From the NCBI RefSeq assembly GCF_025791835.1, contig NZ_JAOXLP010000063.1:1-12760 (forward strand): 12,760 nt of DNA, in the 5' to 3' direction. Position numbers and translations under genes: made by a program. The stretch's first letter is position 1, and each line of letters opens with the position of its first letter. Below are positions 2,002 to 12,760 of this stretch, in pieces. This DNA is from Roseomonas xinghualingensis (GTDB taxonomy: Bacteria; Pseudomonadota; Alphaproteobacteria; Acetobacterales; Acetobacteraceae). The notes beneath the pieces are model-generated. The model was not told where the DNA came from and searched no databases. It saw nothing but the letters and a program-made list of their open reading frames with translations.

Positions 2002-2112
2002 ATGGCCGCTCTGCATACCGACTGTCCCGCTCCGCGCCAGCCTGAGCGCCACGTCCGCTTACCCCTTGTCGGCCAGCTCCATGTCTGCGGGCTGGAGGAC
2101 GACCAGCCATGA
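2002..2112 (+). CDS. 36-aa ORF translationally coupled to the primase gene
   Basis: A short frame, MAALHTDCPAPRQPE onward, ends in DDQP. Its TGA overlaps the ATG of the primase-helicase gene by 4 bp (ATGA at 2109-2112), and an AAGG lies about 8-11 nt before its start. That coupling is the main reason to call it. It has two Cys (residues 8 and 30) and three His but no recognised domain. It may be a small accessory protein or simply a leader peptide that tunes primase translation. The remainder of the 1911-2001 gap shows no clear promoter. Confidence 0.45.
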   Translation: MAALHTDCPAPRQPERHVRLPLVGQLHVCGLEDDQP

Positions 2113-4889
2113 ACGCCTTCACGGACGCCGTACCGGACGAGCCAGAAGTCACGGCCCGCACCCTCAGCTGCACCTTTGGCCACTACGCCGACGCCGTCTG
2201 GACGGACCGGCGGAACCTGACCTGGGACGCCTTGGCCGCGATCCTCACTGACCATCAGGTCGGCCCCAAGAACGGCACCTGCTTCGTCCCGGCCACCTTC
2301 ACCGGTGAACGCCGGCATAAGAACGACGCTGCTCGCATCGACGTGGTCGTGCTCGACAGCGACGCCGGCTTCACGCTGGCCGAGATCCGCACCGCCATCA
2401 TCGAGCAGGGCTGGGCGGCCGTCATCTCCTCCACCCATTCCCACCTGACCACCCGGACGAGGATCGGCCGGGGGAACTGGGACAAGTTCCTCCTCACGGC
2501 CGAGGATCCTGATCGGGCCCCGACCGACATCCTGCTGCAGAAAGGGTATCTCAGCCGGGTCGTGGACGGCGCCACGCTGGCGGAGACCACCGACGAGTTC
2601 GCCTTCGTCGAACACCAGCCCTGCCCGAAGTTCCGGATCGCTATCCCGCTGCTGCGGCCCTGGCTCGCCGCCAGCTATGACAAGCAGGCCGAGGCGAACG
2701 CGGCCTGGAAGGAGCGCATCGAGGCGCTGGCGGCGGTGCTCCACCTCGACCATGACCAGGCCTGCACCGACACGTCCCGGCTGTTCTTTCTTCCCCGTCA
2801 TCCTGCGGATGGCCCGCCGCCCGAGACCGCGGTGTTAGAGGGTGACCCCTGCGACCTGTTCAGCCTGCCCGCGGCGCCGCGGCCTGAACCCAAGGAGCGC
2901 ACCGGTAAGGCCAGGGGGCGTGGCCGCCAGCGTCAGGCTGCCCCCGACGACAGCCTGACCTTCACCGACCAGGAGACCGGGGAGGTTCTCGACCTCCGGG
3001 ATTGGTCCCGAAAGCACGCCGGGCAGTTCGAGATCGTTGCCGCCCTTCGGGCGCGTCGGCCGGACGTGTTCACCGGCAAGGTCGCCGAGAGCACTAGGCA
3101 CCACCTCCGCTGTGTCAACGAGGAGGCGCACACTCATGCTGGGGCGGATGCCGCCACCTTCGTGGTGAACGCCAGCGAGAGCACCAGCCGCGGCTTCGTC
3201 CATCACTGCCGTCACGCCCACTGCGATGGCAGGGACCGCCTGCTGTTCCTGCACCAGATGTTGCAGCAGGGCTGGCTCAGGGTGGCGGATCTGACGGATC
3301 CCGCCTTCCTGGCCGACAACATCCTGGCCCGACCGCTGATCCGCTTCGTCGGGGGCGAGATCGCCGCGATCGTGGATCGCGCCGAGGATGCCCTGATCGG
3401 GGCCGAGCTCGCCATCTACCAGCGCGGCGGCTTTGTTGTCCGTCCCGGCATTGTTTCGGTCAGCATCGCCCAGGGCCAGGAGGTCTCGGCCCAGCGCATC
3501 ATCGAGGTGGGTGACCACGCCCTGGTGGAGGCGATGACGGTCGCAGCCGACTGGGAGAAGTTCGACGCGCGATCCGAAGGCTGGGTGCGGATCGACGCTC
3601 CCCTCAAGGTCGCGGCCACCTACAAGCAGCGCATCGGGCATTGGCGGCTGCCGATCCTCACCGGGATCGTCAACGCCCCCACGCTTCGCGCCGACGGCAG
3701 CATCCTTGCCGAGCCCGGCTATGACCGAGCGACCGGCCTGCTGCTCGACACAAGGGGAGAGACCTTCCCACCCCTTCCCGAGAGGCCGTCTCAGATCGAG
3801 GCGATCCGCGCGATCTCCGTGCTCGACACGCTGGTCGACACCTTCCCCTTCGTGGACCGCCCGAGCCGGGCCGTCGCGCTCTCTGCCATCCTCACCGCCT
3901 GCATCCGCCGGTCTCTGCCGACTGCACCCATGCATGCCTTTACAGCCCCGACCGCCGGGTCCGGCAAATCCATGCTGGTGGACTTGGCCAGCGTGATCGC
4001 CTCCGGCCGGGAGGCCGGTGTCATCGCCCAGGGAAAGACCGAGGAGGAACTAGAGAAACGTCTCGGTGCCCTGCTCCTTGCAGGCGACCAGGTGATCGCC
4101 ATCGACAACTGCGAGGCCCCGCTCGGGGGTGAGTTCCTCTGCTCCATGCTGACCCAGACCGTGGTCCGCCCACGGATCCTCGGCCGGTCGGAAGCGCCAG
4201 AGCTGCCGGCTAACGCCATGGTCACGGCCACCGGCAACAATCTCGTCCTCGTCGGTGACATGACCCGCCGGGCCGTGCTCTGCCAACTCGACCCCAAGGA
4301 GGAGCGCCCAGAGCTCCGTACCTTTGCCACCGACCCGATTGCCGCGGTCAAGGCCGATCGTGGCCGCTACCTGGTCGCGGCACTCACCGTGCTGCGCGCC
4401 TACCACGTGGCCGGCCGCCCCAGCGCGCCGGATCCGCTCGGCTCCTTCGCGGCCTGGAGCAACTGGGTCCGCGGCGCCCTGATCTGGGTTGGCCAGGCCG
4501 ATCCCGTCGACACGATCGAGGAGGCCCGCGACCTCGACCCCAAGCTCGACATGCTGATCGCCGTGCTCACCCAGTGGAGCAAGGTGGTCGGGAACACCAA
4601 CGTTTCCGTCCGTGACCTGATCGAGGCTGCGACGGCGCAGCGCTCAAGCAGCCTCGGGGCGTTCCAGCACACGAAGCCGGAGTTTCTCCATCCCGACTTC
4701 CGGGAAGCGCTTCTCGCGGTCGCGGGCGATGGTGGCGCGGTGAACAGCCGTCGGCTCGGCAAGTGGCTGGCGTCGCATCAGAACCGAGTCGTGCAGGGCG
4801 TGAAGATCACGCGCCTCGGCCTCAGTGCCGGGATCATGCAGTGGCGGCTTGAGGGCAGGATCGAGGAGACCGCCCATGCTGCGCCGTGA
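2109..4889 (+). CDS. Phage/satellite-type primase-polymerase and helicase
   Basis: The 926-residue protein combines three modules. The N-terminal third matches the archaeo-eukaryotic primase fold by motifs: VVVLDSD (DxD at D83/D85), STHSH in the sxH position, FRIAIPLLRPW, and DTSRLFFLPRHP. In the middle is a probable zinc finger: C335, H341, then HHCRHAHC (C367, C372), like those in other phage primase-helicases. The C-terminal part is a helicase ATPase: Walker A AGSGKS (K620, S621), Walker B VIAIDN (D666), sensor TATGNN (706-711) and an Arg-finger-like MTRR (718-721). It should synthesise primers and unwind DNA at the element's own origin. GGAGG lies about 11 nt before the ATG. The stop is followed two bases later by a large inverted repeat, the likely origin. 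Confidence 0.9.
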   Translation: MNAFTDAVPDEPEVTARTLSCTFGHYADAVWTDRRNLTWDALAAILTDHQVGPKNGTCFVPATFTGERRHKNDAARIDVVVLDSDAGFTLAEIRTAIIEQGWAAVISSTHSHLTTRTRIGRGNWDKFLLTAEDPDRAPTDILLQKGYLSRVVDGATLAETTDEFAFVEHQPCPKFRIAIPLLRPWLAASYDKQAEANAAWKERIEALAAVLHLDHDQACTDTSRLFFLPRHPADGPPPETAVLEGDPCDLFSLPAAPRPEPKERTGKARGRGRQRQAAPDDSLTFTDQETGEVLDLRDWSRKHAGQFEIVAALRARRPDVFTGKVAESTRHHLRCVNEEAHTHAGADAATFVVNASESTSRGFVHHCRHAHCDGRDRLLFLHQMLQQGWLRVADLTDPAFLADNILARPLIRFVGGEIAAIVDRAEDALIGAELAIYQRGGFVVRPGIVSVSIAQGQEVSAQRIIEVGDHALVEAMTVAADWEKFDARSEGWVRIDAPLKVAATYKQRIGHWRLPILTGIVNAPTLRADGSILAEPGYDRATGLLLDTRGETFPPLPERPSQIEAIRAISVLDTLVDTFPFVDRPSRAVALSAILTACIRRSLPTAPMHAFTAPTAGSGKSMLVDLASVIASGREAGVIAQGKTEEELEKRLGALLLAGDQVIAIDNCEAPLGGEFLCSMLTQTVVRPRILGRSEAPELPANAMVTATGNNLVLVGDMTRRAVLCQLDPKEERPELRTFATDPIAAVKADRGRYLVAALTVLRAYHVAGRPSAPDPLGSFAAWSNWVRGALIWVGQADPVDTIEEARDLDPKLDMLIAVLTQWSKVVGNTNVSVRDLIEAATAQRSSSLGAFQHTKPEFLHPDFREALLAVAGDGGAVNSRRLGKWLASHQNRVVQGVKITRLGLSAGIMQWRLEGRIEETAHAAP

Positions 4890-4891
4890 TG

Positions 4892-5050
4892 GATCTGGTG
4901 GGTTTGGTGGGTTCCATGGGTTTGCCAGCCCTACCCCGCGAGAAGTGTCGGAACAGCTTTATGACTGTGTATGTGACGTATGTATGTGTTCTGACAGTTA
5001 TAGGGGTAGGACCGGGCCAAACCCATCACATCCACCAAACCCACCAGATC
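4892..5050. repeat. 159-bp dyad-symmetric repeat region; candidate replication origin
   Basis: Four pairs of inverted blocks share one centre at about 4971. They are GATCTGGTGGGTTTGGTGG (4892-4910) with its perfect complement at 5032-5050 (19/19); ATGGGTTTG at 4916-4924 with 5018-5026 (9/9); CCTACCCC at 4930-4937 with 5003-5010 (8/8); and GTCGGAAC at 4947-4954 with 4988-4995 (7/8). The outer arms also read as three tandem 9-mers of GGTGGGTTT type on each side (4897-4923; 5019-5045, inverted). The central 33 bp (4955-4987) hold only 12 G or C, very AT-rich for this window. Iterons flanking an AT-rich core next to a primase-helicase gene resemble origins such as that of satellite phage P4. A regulatory hairpin is the alternative. 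Confidence 0.6.
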
Positions 5051-5130: not shown

Positions 5131-6408
5131 ATGACGACAATATCTGCGGGCAGCACTTCGCCTGCCGCGTTCCCTCCTTACAAGCCGGCGCTCGTCTCCG
5201 AGCTGATTCCTTATTCCAGGAACGCCAGGACGCACTCGCCGGCGCAGGTCGCGCAGATCGCCGCGTCGATCCGCGAGTTTGGCTTCACCAACCCCATCCT
5301 CGTTGACGGCGAGCGAGGTGTCATCGCGGGCCACGGCCGCCTGCTCGCGGCACGGCAGCTCGGGATGCAGGAGGTGCCGACGCTGGAGCTGTCTCACCTG
5401 ACCCCGGCCCAGCGCCGCGCTTACGTGCTGACTGACAACCGTCTGGCGCTCTCCGCCGGGTGGGATGAGGATCTGCTCCGGGTGGAGCTGGCCGAGCTTT
5501 CCACCGAGGGCTTTGACCTGGCGCTCACCGGCTTCGACGAGTTGGAAATCGCCTCCTTCCTCGCCGAACCGATGTCGGGGCTGACCGACCCGTATGCGGT
5601 GCCGGCCGCGCCCGAGACTCCCGTATCCACCGTGGGTGATATCTGGCTCCTCGGCCGCCACCGCCTAATCTGCGGCGACTGCACGGATGCAGCGGTGGTC
5701 GAGGCAGTGCTCGCCGGGGTGCGCCCGCACCTGATGGTCACGGATCCACCCTATGGCGTCGACTACGACCCGGCCTGGCGCAACGAGACGTTAGAGGGCA
5801 GCCGAACGGCCCGCACGGGCAAGGTCCTGAATGACGACCGCGCCGACTGGACAGAGGCCTGGGCCCTGTTCCCGGGAGACGTTTGCTACATTTGGCATGG
5901 CGCGTTGCACGCCGGCACCGTGGCGGACAGCCTGATAGCATCCGGCTTCTCCATTCGGGCGCAGATCATCTGGGCCAAGGAGCGCCTCGTGTTGGGCCGG
6001 GGCCATTACCATTGGCAGCATGAGCCTTGCTGGTACGCGGTCCGGGAGAAAGGCACGGGCCACTGGTCCGGCGACCGTAAGCAAACAACGCTCTGGTCCA
6101 TCCCGTCCCGTGACCAGGACGCCGACACGGTCCACGGCACGCAGAAGCCCGTGGAATGCATGCGCCGGCCGATCGAGAACAACTCCTCCCCGGGCCAGGC
6201 CGTCTACGAGCCCTTCTCCGGATCCGGCACCACCCTGATCGCGGCCGAGATATCGGGCCGGGCCTGCCACGCGGTGGAGCTGTCCCCAGCCTATGTCGAC
6301 GTGGCGGTGCTGCGTTGGCAGGCCTTCACAGGGCAGGAGGCAAGGCTGGAGAGCAGTGGCGCCACCTTCGCGGAGGTCACCGCCACCCGCGCCGGGGAGG
6401 GTGCCTGA
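5131..6408 (+). CDS. ParB-domain DNA methyltransferase (probable N6-adenine, beta class)
   Basis: The 425-residue protein starts at an ATG with GGAGGT 4 nt upstream; the frame is open further 5' but that part overlaps the primase gene and the repeat region. Residues about 15-110 form a ParB-like N-terminal domain (SIREFGFTNPILVD, then GVIAGHGRLLAARQLGM). The catalytic motif DPPY is at 205-208 and the AdoMet-binding motif FSGSGTT at 362-368. The order, DPPY before FxGxG, is that of beta-class amino methyltransferases, and DPPY favours adenine N6. No restriction endonuclease gene is next to it, so it looks like an orphan phage enzyme that modifies element DNA, for protection or to control replication or packaging. 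It ends 1 bp before the next gene. Confidence 0.9.
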   Translation: MTTISAGSTSPAAFPPYKPALVSELIPYSRNARTHSPAQVAQIAASIREFGFTNPILVDGERGVIAGHGRLLAARQLGMQEVPTLELSHLTPAQRRAYVLTDNRLALSAGWDEDLLRVELAELSTEGFDLALTGFDELEIASFLAEPMSGLTDPYAVPAAPETPVSTVGDIWLLGRHRLICGDCTDAAVVEAVLAGVRPHLMVTDPPYGVDYDPAWRNETLEGSRTARTGKVLNDDRADWTEAWALFPGDVCYIWHGALHAGTVADSLIASGFSIRAQIIWAKERLVLGRGHYHWQHEPCWYAVREKGTGHWSGDRKQTTLWSIPSRDQDADTVHGTQKPVECMRRPIENNSSPGQAVYEPFSGSGTTLIAAEISGRACHAVELSPAYVDVAVLRWQAFTGQEARLESSGATFAEVTATRAGEGA

Positions 6409-6409
6409 C

Positions 6410-6838
6410 ATGGCCAAGGGAGGTCTGTTCGTGCCCACCGACGAGCAGCGCAAGACGGTCCGCGTGATGTCCGGCTTTGGCATCCCGCAGGCCGACATCG
6501 CGACCCTGCTGGAGATCGACCCCAAAACGCTGCGTCTGCATTTCCGCCCCGAGCTCGACCGCGGCTCCGTCGAGGCGACCGTCAAGGTCGCCCAGACCCT
6601 GTTTCAGATGGCGACCTCCGGCCAGAACACCGCGGCCTCAATCTTTTGGATGAAGGCGAGGGCAGGGTGGCGGGAGAAGCATGAGGTGGTGCTCTCGGCC
6701 AAGCCGGCCGGCGAGATGAGTGACGCCGAGCTGGAGGAGGAGATCGCCCGTGCCCGGGCAGCGAGGCTGGTGCTCAACCGCGAGCCGTCCGAGGCAGGAG
6801 ATGAGGGCGACCGAGCAGGGGGCAGCGATGGAGACTGA
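6410..6838 (+). CDS. HTH protein, probable terminase small subunit
   Basis: The 142-residue protein begins 1 bp after the methyltransferase stop, with GGGGAGGG upstream. Residues about 18-45 look like a helix-turn-helix: GFGIPQADIATLLEIDPKTL. This is followed by LHFRPELDRG, VKVAQTLFQMAT and IFWMKARAGWREK, a pattern I know from small phage proteins encoded just before TerL. The C-terminus is acidic and rich in Glu and Asp. The likely role is recognising packaging-site DNA and recruiting the large subunit. It overlaps the TerL gene by 11 bp or more. Similar proteins are often left as hypothetical, so the small-terminase call depends on position as well as on the HTH. Confidence 0.7.
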   Translation: MAKGGLFVPTDEQRKTVRVMSGFGIPQADIATLLEIDPKTLRLHFRPELDRGSVEATVKVAQTLFQMATSGQNTAASIFWMKARAGWREKHEVVLSAKPAGEMSDAELEEEIARARAARLVLNREPSEAGDEGDRAGGSDGD

Positions 6839-8291
6839 CCCTGCCTGGGAGTTGGGCCAGCGCCGAGCCATCCGCCGCGAGTTTGGCTTGTGGTGCGAGC
6901 ACGCCCTCGCTCCTCAGGGCATGGTGCCCGCCGCTCACCATCGTCTGCTCATCCGTGAGCTCCAAGCGGTGGCGGACGGGGTGCACGACCGGCTGATGGT
7001 GTTCATGCCCCCGGGCTCGGCCAAGAGCACCTACACGTCGGACCTGTTCCCGGCCTGGTTCCTCGCCCAGGCGCGCGATCGCCGGGTCATCGCGACCTCC
7101 AACACCGCCGAACTGGCCGGCACTTTCTCCCGCCGTGTGCGGGGCAGGATTCGGACGCACGGCCCGACCCTGGGCTATCGCCTGGACCGAGAGGCCGAGG
7201 ACCTCTGGACCACCAGCAATGGGGGCGAGTACCGCGCCGCCGGCATCGGGGGCGTGATCACCGGCCTCCGGGCGGACCTCGCCTTGATCGATGACCCCGT
7301 GAAGTCGCGGGAGGAGGCGGACAGCGCCGCTCGTCGCAGCCGGGTCTGGGAGTGGTTCGGAGACGACCTCCGGACCCGCCTCAGGCCCGGGGCCGCCATC
7401 GTGGTGGTGCAGACCCGCTGGCATGAGGACGACCTCTCTGGGCGGCTGTTGCAGGCCCAGGGTGACCAGTGGCGGGTGGTGTCCCTGCCGGCCGAGGCGG
7501 AGGGGGACGACCCGCTGGGCAGGAAGCCCGGGGAGATGCTGTGGGGGGATGACCGCTACGGCTACGCGGCGTCCCTGGCGCGGGTGAAGGCGGAGGCGAG
7601 CACAAGGAGCTGGTCGGCGCTGTATCAGCAGCGGCCGGTGCCTGACACGGGGGACTACTTCCAGGCCGAGTGGCTCACCGCCACCGACAGTCTCCCCGAC
7701 CGCGTCACCCTCCGGGTCTACGGGGGATCGGACTACGCGGTGACGGCCGGCGGGGGCGACTGGACGGTGCACGTGGTGGTGGGCATGGACCCGGAGGGGA
7801 AGCTCTGGCTCCTGGATCTGTGGCGCGGGCAGGCCGCGGCGGATGCCTGGATCGAGGCGTTCTGTGACCTGGTGCTGCGCTGGCGCCCGATCGGCTGGGC
7901 GGAGGAGACCGGGCAGATCCGGGCCGGTGTCGGGCCGTTCCTGGAGCGGCGTATGCGAGAGCGGCGGGCCTACGTGGCACGGCACCCCTTTCCCACCCGG
8001 GGTGACAAGGCGGTGCGGGCGCAGTCGATCCGCGGGAGGATGGCGCTGGATGGGCTGCGGGTGCCGAGGACGGCAGCGTGGCGTCAGGCGCTCGAGGCGG
8101 AGCTCCTCACGTTCCCGGCGGGGAAGCATGACGACCAGGTGGATGCGCTGGGGCTGGTGGGGCAGCTGCTGGACAAGATGGTCGTGGGGACCGCGCCGAA
8201 GCGGGAGAGGGCTGAGCGGCGGGACGGGTACGGGCAGTGGTTTGGTAGGGACGAGTACGACCGAGAGGGCGTGAATTGGAAGACGGCGTGA
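6828..8291 (+). CDS. terL: Phage terminase large subunit (packaging ATPase-nuclease)
   Basis: The 487-residue protein has the two TerL modules. In the ATPase, Walker A is PPGSAKST (61-68), Walker B is LALIDDP (D155/D156), and the coupling region is VVVQTRWHEDD. In the RNaseH-like nuclease, a first acidic residue is in YGGSDYAVT (D302), with a later acidic cluster, KHDDQVDAL (D435, D436, D439). It should translocate and cut DNA into preformed heads. Length and motif spacing are normal, so it looks intact. The start at 6828 has AGGGGG about 5 nt upstream; the ATG at 6801 is an alternative. Unusually, no portal, protease or capsid gene follows: the next gene faces the opposite way 30 bp later. 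Confidence 0.92.
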   Translation: METDPAWELGQRRAIRREFGLWCEHALAPQGMVPAAHHRLLIRELQAVADGVHDRLMVFMPPGSAKSTYTSDLFPAWFLAQARDRRVIATSNTAELAGTFSRRVRGRIRTHGPTLGYRLDREAEDLWTTSNGGEYRAAGIGGVITGLRADLALIDDPVKSREEADSAARRSRVWEWFGDDLRTRLRPGAAIVVVQTRWHEDDLSGRLLQAQGDQWRVVSLPAEAEGDDPLGRKPGEMLWGDDRYGYAASLARVKAEASTRSWSALYQQRPVPDTGDYFQAEWLTATDSLPDRVTLRVYGGSDYAVTAGGGDWTVHVVVGMDPEGKLWLLDLWRGQAAADAWIEAFCDLVLRWRPIGWAEETGQIRAGVGPFLERRMRERRAYVARHPFPTRGDKAVRAQSIRGRMALDGLRVPRTAAWRQALEAELLTFPAGKHDDQVDALGLVGQLLDKMVVGTAPKRERAERRDGYGQWFGRDEYDREGVNWKTA

Positions 8292-8320: not shown

Positions 8321-9319
8321 TCACCTACGGCGGTCGATGATCTTGATTACATCTGGCAACGGAAGTAGTTCGTCACGTGCGAGGATGCGGGATGCGTTGT
8401 CCACTAAACTTGCTTTCTCGGCCGGTGTGAGTCGGAGGTGCGTACCGAAACCCGGCACTCGAACCATGCCAGGTAATGCGATCGTCAGATGGCTCTCGCC
8501 ATCAACTTCGAGCTGCAGCCCTGTTACCCTCGCCGAGCCCCGGCATCGCGGCCTGTCCGGCTTAGTGCAATCTAGATCGATCAGCCAATCACCCTCGTGA
8601 ATGCCGTCGAACTGATAACCCCAGGCTTTGCGAAAGTCCGAAGCAGACAGTCCAGGCTTAGCTGGCAAAGCCCCGCTCCTCACCTGTCCAAGTAACCGGT
8701 TTCCAGCTTCACTGAGGTCCTCGCGGTAAGAGGCCACGAACACGGACCCAAAATCGTCCGGTCTCTCCCTACACGCCGCTAAAAGCGTTTTTGGTGCGGA
8801 TGCAGGCCGTGGTGCCAGCCAAAGGCCCGGGACTGAAGAAGGCCAGCTTTTACGCGCTTCAATTGCTGCCTTGATGTCCGAGTTGCGAACGTGACGGGAC
8901 TCGGGATCGCTCCACAGTGCCTCGAAGAGGTCGAGCACCTCTGCAACGAAGTCCGGATCGTCGCTGGATGCATTCGCCTCAACCCAGCCTTTTGGCATAC
9001 CCGCAGCTGCTGGAAGCCCGAAGCGCGAGGCATTCGATGATCCCACGACGGCCAGGTTCTCAGTTGCGTAGATCTTGGCATGGAGTCGCGGGTGGGTCCT
9101 GACCTTTATCCGGAGGTCCCGTATTTCGGATATTGAATTCGGATTGCAGCCTGGGTGATCGAGGTTGCACAAGATCCGGACGGGGCTGCCTGCGACCAGC
9201 CCCAGCAAGGCGGCGGCACCTTCACCCCAGAATGGGACTGCCACGACGGAACTTGCGGACCTCTTCATCGCTCGGCGGAAGTGCGGCGCGACATCAGTTT
9301 CACGCAGCAACTTCAGCAC
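8321..9319 (-). CDS. Phospholipase D-superfamily nuclease-like protein
   Basis: The 332-residue protein starts at a GTG with AAGGA about 7 nt upstream. Its N-terminal 130 residues match a PLD-like domain: strand VVAVPFWGEGAAALLG, then the catalytic-type motif LHAKIY...VVGSSNAS (H80, K82, G93-N96). The usual Asp after HxK is Glu (E87). EANASSDDPDFVAEV follows. Only one such motif is present, so an active enzyme would need to dimerise, as single-motif PLD nucleases do. The C-terminal 200 residues are unrecognised; they include KAWGYQFDGIHEGDWL and may sense or bind a ligand. Base composition is visibly lower in GC than the phage module, suggesting separate acquisition. A defence or DNA-processing role is inferred only. 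Confidence 0.75.
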   Translation of the reverse strand: MLKLLRETDVAPHFRRAMKRSASSVVAVPFWGEGAAALLGLVAGSPVRILCNLDHPGCNPNSISEIRDLRIKVRTHPRLHAKIYATENLAVVGSSNASRFGLPAAAGMPKGWVEANASSDDPDFVAEVLDLFEALWSDPESRHVRNSDIKAAIEARKSWPSSVPGLWLAPRPASAPKTLLAACRERPDDFGSVFVASYREDLSEAGNRLLGQVRSGALPAKPGLSASDFRKAWGYQFDGIHEGDWLIDLDCTKPDRPRCRGSARVTGLQLEVDGESHLTIALPGMVRVPGFGTHLRLTPAEKASLVDNASRILARDELLPLPDVIKIIDRRR

Positions 9320-12077: not shown

Positions 12078-12760
12078 TCATCTGCCTGCACCAGCTCCGA
12101 AGGTTTTGTCCTTTGCTATTTGTGCCGGAAGCCGCTCCAGGATCCGCGCCACCGACGTGTGGGTCCATGCAGACCCACCCCGCGGCGTCGGTACCCCTCT
12201 CTCCGTGAGTGCTCGCGCTAAGCCTTGGTGCGTGGTGATCCCCTCCGCTCGCAGCACCTCTAGCTCCAACGCGAGCCGGTGCGCCGTTCGGGTCGCCTGC
12301 TCTACCCGAGATATGGCCGCAGCAGCGGCACAGGGCGGCTTGGACGGCCTCCACCCCCGATCCCCACCCAACACCGCCCCCCTCGCCCGTGCCGCCGCTA
12401 GCGCCGCCCGGGTCCGCTCCGAGATGATCTCCCGCTCCTTCTGCGCCATGGCGGCATAGACCCGCATCATGAGGTCATCCGCCCCGGGCATGTCCGCCGC
12501 TCGGATAGAGATACCCTCCTCCAGCAGCTGCGAGAGGGTGTGAGCCCGGCGGGTGATCCGATCGAGGCGGGCGGCCACCAGCACCGCCCCGAGCTGCCGG
12601 CAGCGGGTCAGGGCGGCCTGGAACCCGGGCCGGCGGTCGTCCTTCCCCGAGGCGATATCCTGGTGCTCGGCGACCAGCGTCCAGCCCTCGCGCTCGACGA
12701 AGGCACGGACGCTGGCCTGCTGCGCCTCAAGGCCCAGGCCAGAGTGCCCCTGCTCGGCGG
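12078..12760 (-). CDS. Serine recombinase (resolvase/invertase type), 5' end outside window
   Basis: The frame is open from the right edge to the stop at 12078, giving about 226 residues. The visible N-terminus, EQGHSGLGLEAQQASVRAFV, normally follows the YxRVS motif with the catalytic Ser, which lies just outside. The resolvase fold continues with DIASGKDDRRPGFQAAL, VAARLDRITRRAHTL (conserved Arg residues) and MMRVYAAMAQKEREIISERT, the start of the long helix. The C-terminal part, GLARALTERGVPTPRGGSAW and TSVARILERL, is a short recombinase DNA-binding region. The size suits a resolvase/invertase rather than a large serine integrase. It could resolve or invert DNA of a mobile element. The catalytic Ser cannot be confirmed here. 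Confidence 0.88.
   Translation of the reverse strand, partial: AEQGHSGLGLEAQQASVRAFVEREGWTLVAEHQDIASGKDDRRPGFQAALTRCRQLGAVLVAARLDRITRRAHTLSQLLEEGISIRAADMPGADDLMMRVYAAMAQKEREIISERTRAALAAARARGAVLGGDRGWRPSKPPCAAAAAISRVEQATRTAHRLALELEVLRAEGITTHQGLARALTERGVPTPRGGSAWTHTSVARILERLPAQIAKDKTFGAGAGR

Follow-up and report, generated by a model that had tools for sequence, protein, structure and literature searches.

In phage-inducible chromosomal islands (PICIs), the origin of replication directly follows the gene of the replication initiator on its 3' side, carries two sets of iterons around an A+T-rich stretch, and supports a plasmid (PMC6092414; this and the other papers cited here are drawn on in part). 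In the part drawn on, the authors of that survey confined such an origin to the PICIs they identified, with no counterpart in any other known bacterial replicon. The C-terminal domain of the Rep protein of Staphylococcus aureus pathogenicity islands (SaPIs) has been described as recognizing repeats downstream of its gene (cited in PMC7581432), and the C-terminal domain of Cch2 from the staphylococcal cassette chromosome mec (SCCmec) binds such a site (PMC7581432). We analyzed a 12,760-nucleotide contig of Roseomonas xinghualingensis (NZ_JAOXLP010000063.1, called the window), in which a primase-helicase gene (rep) is directly followed by a 159-bp dyad at positions 4892–5050, delimited by its symmetry score and by comparison of loci. 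The dyad is probably the replication origin of the element, read by the primase-helicase encoded just upstream, and we place the probability of this reading at about 0.87.

A characterized homologue of this primase-helicase is RepA of the Streptomyces plasmid pWTY27. RepA matched positions 99–518 of our family profile (A2), which takes in two actinobacterial relatives, with an E value of 1.5e-92 in an hmmsearch of three sequences. It shifts a 300-bp non-coding stretch and protects positions 405–447 and 462–509 while the middle stays open; replication was lost when the stretch was deleted and regained when it was added back (PMC3583192). Bidirectional replication of pWTY27 was deduced from its propagation in linear form (PMC3583192). 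In the plasmid record, the protected blocks hold copies of GTGGGAA at a 9-bp spacing on each side, and the two sides are inverted. Binding by Rep and the need of flanking sequence for replication are established for this homologue and, by analogy, would apply to the window. In the PICI origin of CFT073, CTGTCTACC occurs twice at 9 bp on the left, with copies on the right that are inverted and likewise 9 bp apart, and with further internal copies; the primase of this island gave no match to the A2 profile at an E value of 10.

The Sulfolobus plasmid pRN1 has a stem-loop of approximately 100 bp located 3' of its rep gene, which is essential and restores replication; one change in the stem was tolerated only alongside the mirror change, which favors a stem, and the origin was said to lack an iteron structure (PMC4234260). 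In our own reading, each stem arm of pRN1 (locus L163, 5084–5183) holds TGTCCA twice, 9 bp apart; these copies are not called iterons in the part of PMC4234260 drawn on, and the part of PMC10061031 at hand does not mention iterons. ORF904 of pRN1 gave no match at an E value of 10 to the A2 profile, the one profile used, and the window is not filed as a pRN1 member.

The stop codon of rep (TGA, 4887–4889) is followed two bases on by the dyad, as an earlier note on this DNA had read from the letters. The outer arms (4892–4924 and 5018–5050) are 88% complementary over 33 nt, with unbroken paired runs of 19/19 (4892–4910) and 9/9 (4916–4924) and an inner 8/8 block, CCTACCCC/GGGGTAGG. The nested blocks described in that note were found again, except that the 8/8 block is centered at 4970 rather than 4971, approximately 1 bp off. 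In the exact register, 49 of the 79 half-dyad positions are paired, against a mean of 20.6 and a maximum of 35 in 1000 shuffles. The best-arm score is 23.0, and 1000 dinucleotide shuffles reached at most 13.5. The dyad ranks first among the 193 scanning windows on the contig, where the best unrelated one scored 11.5, and the 159-bp stretch has a single location in the host genome. The dyad is real and lies far beyond chance.

The left half-origin (4892–4950, + strand) consists of three iterons, a spacer, and an inner TGTCG. Its 9-mers run head to tail as GGTGGGTTT (L1, 4897–4905), GGTGGGTTC (L2, 4906–4914), and CATGGGTTT (L3, 4915–4923), all read from the sequence on the + strand. The right half-origin (4992–5050, − strand; from the sequence and the comparison of representatives) carries the inverted set on the complementary strand, with GGTGGGTTT (R1, 5037–5045), a degenerate GGTGGATGT (R2, 5028–5036), and GATGGGTTT (R3, 5019–5027). 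The three 9-mers per side proposed earlier are present. The A+T-rich core that the same note pointed out also holds, as A+T reaches 62.5% at 4956–4987 against 34% for the contig.

To see how the dyad is distributed, loci were drawn from whole genomes, IMG/VR contigs, and annotated plasmids, and 128 of them (window counted) were kept, in which the family helicase is present and at least 200 bp lie behind the gene. A locus was regarded as core when the profile match extended at least to position 480 and the protein ended at most 30 residues past the match, and a dyad was called when a spaced dyad within 260 bp behind the stop was reached by none of 100 dinucleotide shuffles. A dyad follows the rep gene in 84 of the 112 core loci (window counted), so that the conservation beside homologous genes, which the earlier note had put forward as a check, was borne out; among 24 loci fetched afterwards from the phylum, 20 were scorable, and 9 of the 15 core loci have a dyad, two of them with 12–13-bp arms without clear iterons. 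Among the 13 loci whose proteins extend at least 80 residues past the family profile, none has a dyad behind the gene, and these may use another type of origin (L143, L147–L152, L155–L157, L006, L007, and L012; 80–139 residues past the profile). A dyad is present in one of the 3 remaining non-core loci and in one of the 5 later non-core loci (L182, where only a small piece of the profile was matched). As a control, a score of 12 was reached by 9 of 400 regions behind other open reading frames (ORFs), sampled from 2364, and 3 of the 5 control regions listed resemble the same kind of dyad. The annotated plasmid records have a dyad in 7 of 9 scored cases. The dyad occurs on circular plasmids, one of which is pA32H2, with 6.5 kb, whose only listed replication gene, in an incomplete gene table, is the family Rep. 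A methyltransferase gene lies downstream in only 10 of the 71 dyad loci having at least 900 bp behind; therefore, in this comparison, the dyad travels with rep rather than with the gene downstream. In a distant homologue (L008, G027:C40), there is a similar dyad whose 9-bp repeats are oppositely oriented (CGCAACCTA-type on the left).

The repeats follow a common spacing but not a common sequence. Within the arms of 65 representatives, a lag of 9 bp gives an identity of 0.56, and none of the other lags tested (5–15) exceeds 0.40; the preferred lag is 9 bp in 46 representatives and 10 bp in 15. A search free of any symmetry assumption found a 9-bp triple in 47 of 86 core representatives, and a second triple fitted better inverted than direct in 46 of the 47. 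The iterons vary across loci from GGTGGGTTT and TAGGGGTTT to GAAGGAGAT, TTGCAGGAT, CGGGTATTG, and AAAGGTCTT, and simple clustering of 64 representatives gave 41 repeat classes. The arms of one locus nevertheless match each other: the left-right arm score averages 18.9 within a locus versus 6.6 across loci, and in 80% of the 65 representatives no other right arm pairs better with the left arm than that of its own locus.

Inside the iterons there is a second inverted pair, AAAnTGTCA ... TGACAnTTT. Exact TGTCA/TGACA sites on both sides, 44–58 bp from the outer edges, occur in 29 of the 65 representatives, compared with a mean of 3.0 and a maximum of 4 for shuffled centers, and the pair is in exact register with the outer dyad in 26 of the 29; a left-side TGTCA at this distance is present in 32 of the 65. 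The gap between the exact inner sites of the 29 ranges from 1 to 64 bp. The distance from the edge is thus nearly fixed while the gap varies; therefore, the layout is one of two rigid half-origins of approximately 55 bp around an elastic center. In the window, the inner pair is TGTCG (4946–4950, + strand, assigned by comparison of representatives) and TGACA (4992–4996, − strand, from the sequence and the same comparison), each 54 bp from its edge, and the gap between them is the 41-bp A+T-rich elastic center (4951–4991, from the comparison and the composition). The center is only 1–2 bp long in four loci. The inner sites almost merge into one palindrome in L110 (AACTGTCAGTGACAGTT), L102, and L119; therefore, the center can contract to 1 bp. 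With a looser motif, the inner pair was found in 27 of the 41 representatives with ORFs of at least 750 aa and in 12 of the 23 with shorter ORFs, some of which are clipped at contig edges, while those of L037, L096, L103, L109, and L119 start well inside their loci. Because the pair also occurs without a fused primase, the likely reader of the inner site is the helicase or else a host factor. Sequence comparison establishes the dyad, the 9-bp repeats, the matching of arms within elements, the divergence between elements, the fixed inner site, and the association with one form of helicase.

The claim of the earlier note that this is an origin bound by its own primase-helicase is supported by the conservation in the family and by the characterized homologue: the dyad follows core-family genes, it is absent from the long-protein loci, and pWTY27 RepA binds such a repeat. 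In the mechanism we propose, the winged-helix-like C-terminus of Rep would recognize the 9-bp iterons, three per side in opposed orientation, and this binding would set two helicase assemblies head to head on the two rigid half-origins. The inner TGTCA-type site, common to many elements with differing iterons, would be the point at which the conserved core of the helicase, or else a host factor, opens or loads. The A+T-rich center of variable length would then melt, and the fused primase would prime both forks, giving bidirectional initiation.

Several observations weigh against this reading. At the threshold used, 28 of the 112 core loci have no dyad. By eye, approximately 11 of these have a degenerate or partial one (e.g. 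L043, L128, L074, L092, and L115), and in L030, L101, and L129 a dyad lies further downstream; approximately 14 core loci are without any dyad by eye, including the 60%-identical homologue L003 and the plasmids of Legionella (L038) and Cereibacter (L041). Behind the primase gene of phage BPP-1, no significant dyad was found either. Being related, the 112 loci do not count as independent. Exact two-sided TGTCA/TGACA sites are absent from 36 of the 65 representatives, and the left inner site of the window itself is TGTCG rather than TGTCA. In pWTY27, a 149-bp core spanning the footprint failed to restore replication, whereas the 300 bp did (PMC3583192). In a partial Mantel test, the correlation with iteron sequence was r 0.18 both for the last domain (p 0.001) and for the helicase (p 0.004), so that the last domain does not stand out as the part that follows the iterons. 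Finally, where an iteron deviates from the consensus, its partner carries the mirrored deviation in 28 of 131 cases, against 22 of 262 for non-partners, which suggests some constraint on the symmetry itself.

These mirrored deviations also speak for a rival reading, an origin whose Rep reads an extruded cruciform or stem-loop instead of duplex iterons. The compensated stem change in pRN1 speaks for such a structure, as does the suggestion by the authors of the pWTY27 study that the repeat is folded back (PMC3583192). However, the direct repeats of 9 bp within each arm are strong, although a stem has no need of them, and a center of 1–2 bp leaves no loop for an inner stem. In addition, the pWTY27 footprint was made on a linear PCR duplex (PMC3583192), and binding of SCCmec Cch2 was kept without the inverted repeats and lost without the direct repeats, so that the latter are what mattered there (PMC7581432). 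We regard the cruciform as unlikely, although the two modes of recognition are not mutually exclusive.

It is very improbable that the dyad acts instead in the RNA of the primase gene, whether as a terminator, as an attenuator, or as a hairpin that stabilizes the transcript. Its position directly past the stop codon would suit such a role, and the + strand has a folding energy of −92 kcal/mol (z −9.1). However, no terminator-like site was found, the sole Rfam match, at 25 bits, falls short of the gathering score of 150, and the arm mismatches have no G-U bias (47 G.T versus 39 A.C). A transcript structure would also leave the 9-bp repeats and the divergence of the iterons unexplained, and the pWTY27 stretch functions when re-added at a different cloning site (PMC3583192). 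The genes adjoining in the window, for a ParB-methyltransferase and a terminase, bring to mind an operator or partition site of the former or a packaging site of the latter. The rarity of the methyltransferase behind other dyads speaks against the operator, and no terminase gene is listed, in an incomplete gene table, for pA32H2 (whole), pMNOD06 (nearly whole), or pMt-1 (a 9.5-kb stretch); we consider this explanation scarcely credible.

The primase-helicase (2109–4889, + strand) has 926 aa, with a predicted N-terminal archaeo-eukaryotic primase (AEP)-like fold, an SF3/D5-like helicase, and a winged-helix-like C-terminus. Structure models show these three parts, the winged helix being assigned from the secondary structure of the model, and the top structural matches, tied, are the SaPI5 primase-helicase and poxvirus D5. 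Outside the origin, the next gene encodes a ParB-like/DNA methyltransferase fusion (5131–6408, + strand; Pfam PF01555, PHROG phrog_498), followed by the small (TerS) and large (TerL) terminase subunits (6410–8291, + strand; phrog_309, phrog_38, and Pfam Terminase_6N/6C). Immediately after TerL, in the slot where a phage portal gene is expected, the opposite strand carries a phospholipase D (PLD)-nuclease-like gene (8321–9319, − strand; PLDc_2 slightly under the curated cut-off). The element could be a satellite or else a prophage in decay. Near the contig end is a serine recombinase (12078–12584, − strand) that is N-terminally incomplete, its match to the Resolvase profile starting at position 66. 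The 8 ORFs scanned with Pfam on this 12.8-kb contig include neither a tyrosine integrase nor AlpA. Among the relatives of the element are plasmids, a region (L037) that has both an integrase and a terminase, and a viral contig with TerS/TerL (L065). A second element in the same genome (L016/L162, G000:C99; 3903–6668 and downstream) has the same primase-dyad-methyltransferase order. Its iterons differ from those of the window, with GTGGCTTA at a spacing of 8 and then 10 bp on both sides.

The paired-iteron layout, called exclusive to PICIs in the part of the survey drawn on (PMC6092414), is also present in elements with a terminase and in plasmids from two phyla or more (Pseudomonadota and Actinomycetota); therefore, it would be a general mode of replication start in mobile elements. 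The half-origin geometry predicts the footprint length, the order of sites, and the tolerance of center length, so that double-hexamer loading becomes a question that can be put to a direct test. For DNA recognition by such proteins, the numerous matched Rep/iteron pairs offer a natural data set. A wider and tentative idea, which we hold to be possible but rather doubtful, is that the D5/SF3-type primase-helicase origins of archaeal plasmids, PICIs, actinobacterial plasmids, and proteobacterial prophages are one ancient class. If so, all would have two rigid inverted half-origins with an elastic center between them, a winged helix reading iterons spaced at 9 bp, and one inner loading site in each half. 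The iterons would be a fast-evolving, element-specific code that lets several such elements coexist in one cell, and the stem-loop of pRN1 would be two 9-bp iterons per side and not a hairpin.

The earlier note could not name an origin of this kind, and this can be improved, since the layout has named relatives in the PICI/SaPI origin, in pWTY27, and possibly in pRN1. pRN1 shares with the window an AEP primase-helicase with a winged helix (predicted for the window) and a dyad behind the gene; it differs in being archaeal, in being described as a stem-loop, and in that a compensatory change restored function. In PICIs and SaPIs, the origin is likewise 3' of the initiator gene with paired iteron sets around an A+T-rich stretch, and the SaPI5 primase-helicase is a structural relative of the window helicase. 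However, the CFT073 origin has several additional internal iterons, whereas the window carries TerS and TerL, others of its relatives are plasmids, and the inner TGTCA pair distinguishes this group from PICIs. pWTY27 differs in that its primase is a separate protein, its footprint covers two rather than three iterons per side, extra iterons lie outside, and a TGTCA-type inner pair was not seen by eye. It nevertheless resembles the window in having a homologous helicase and a long inverted iteron repeat in the non-coding stretch directly behind rep.
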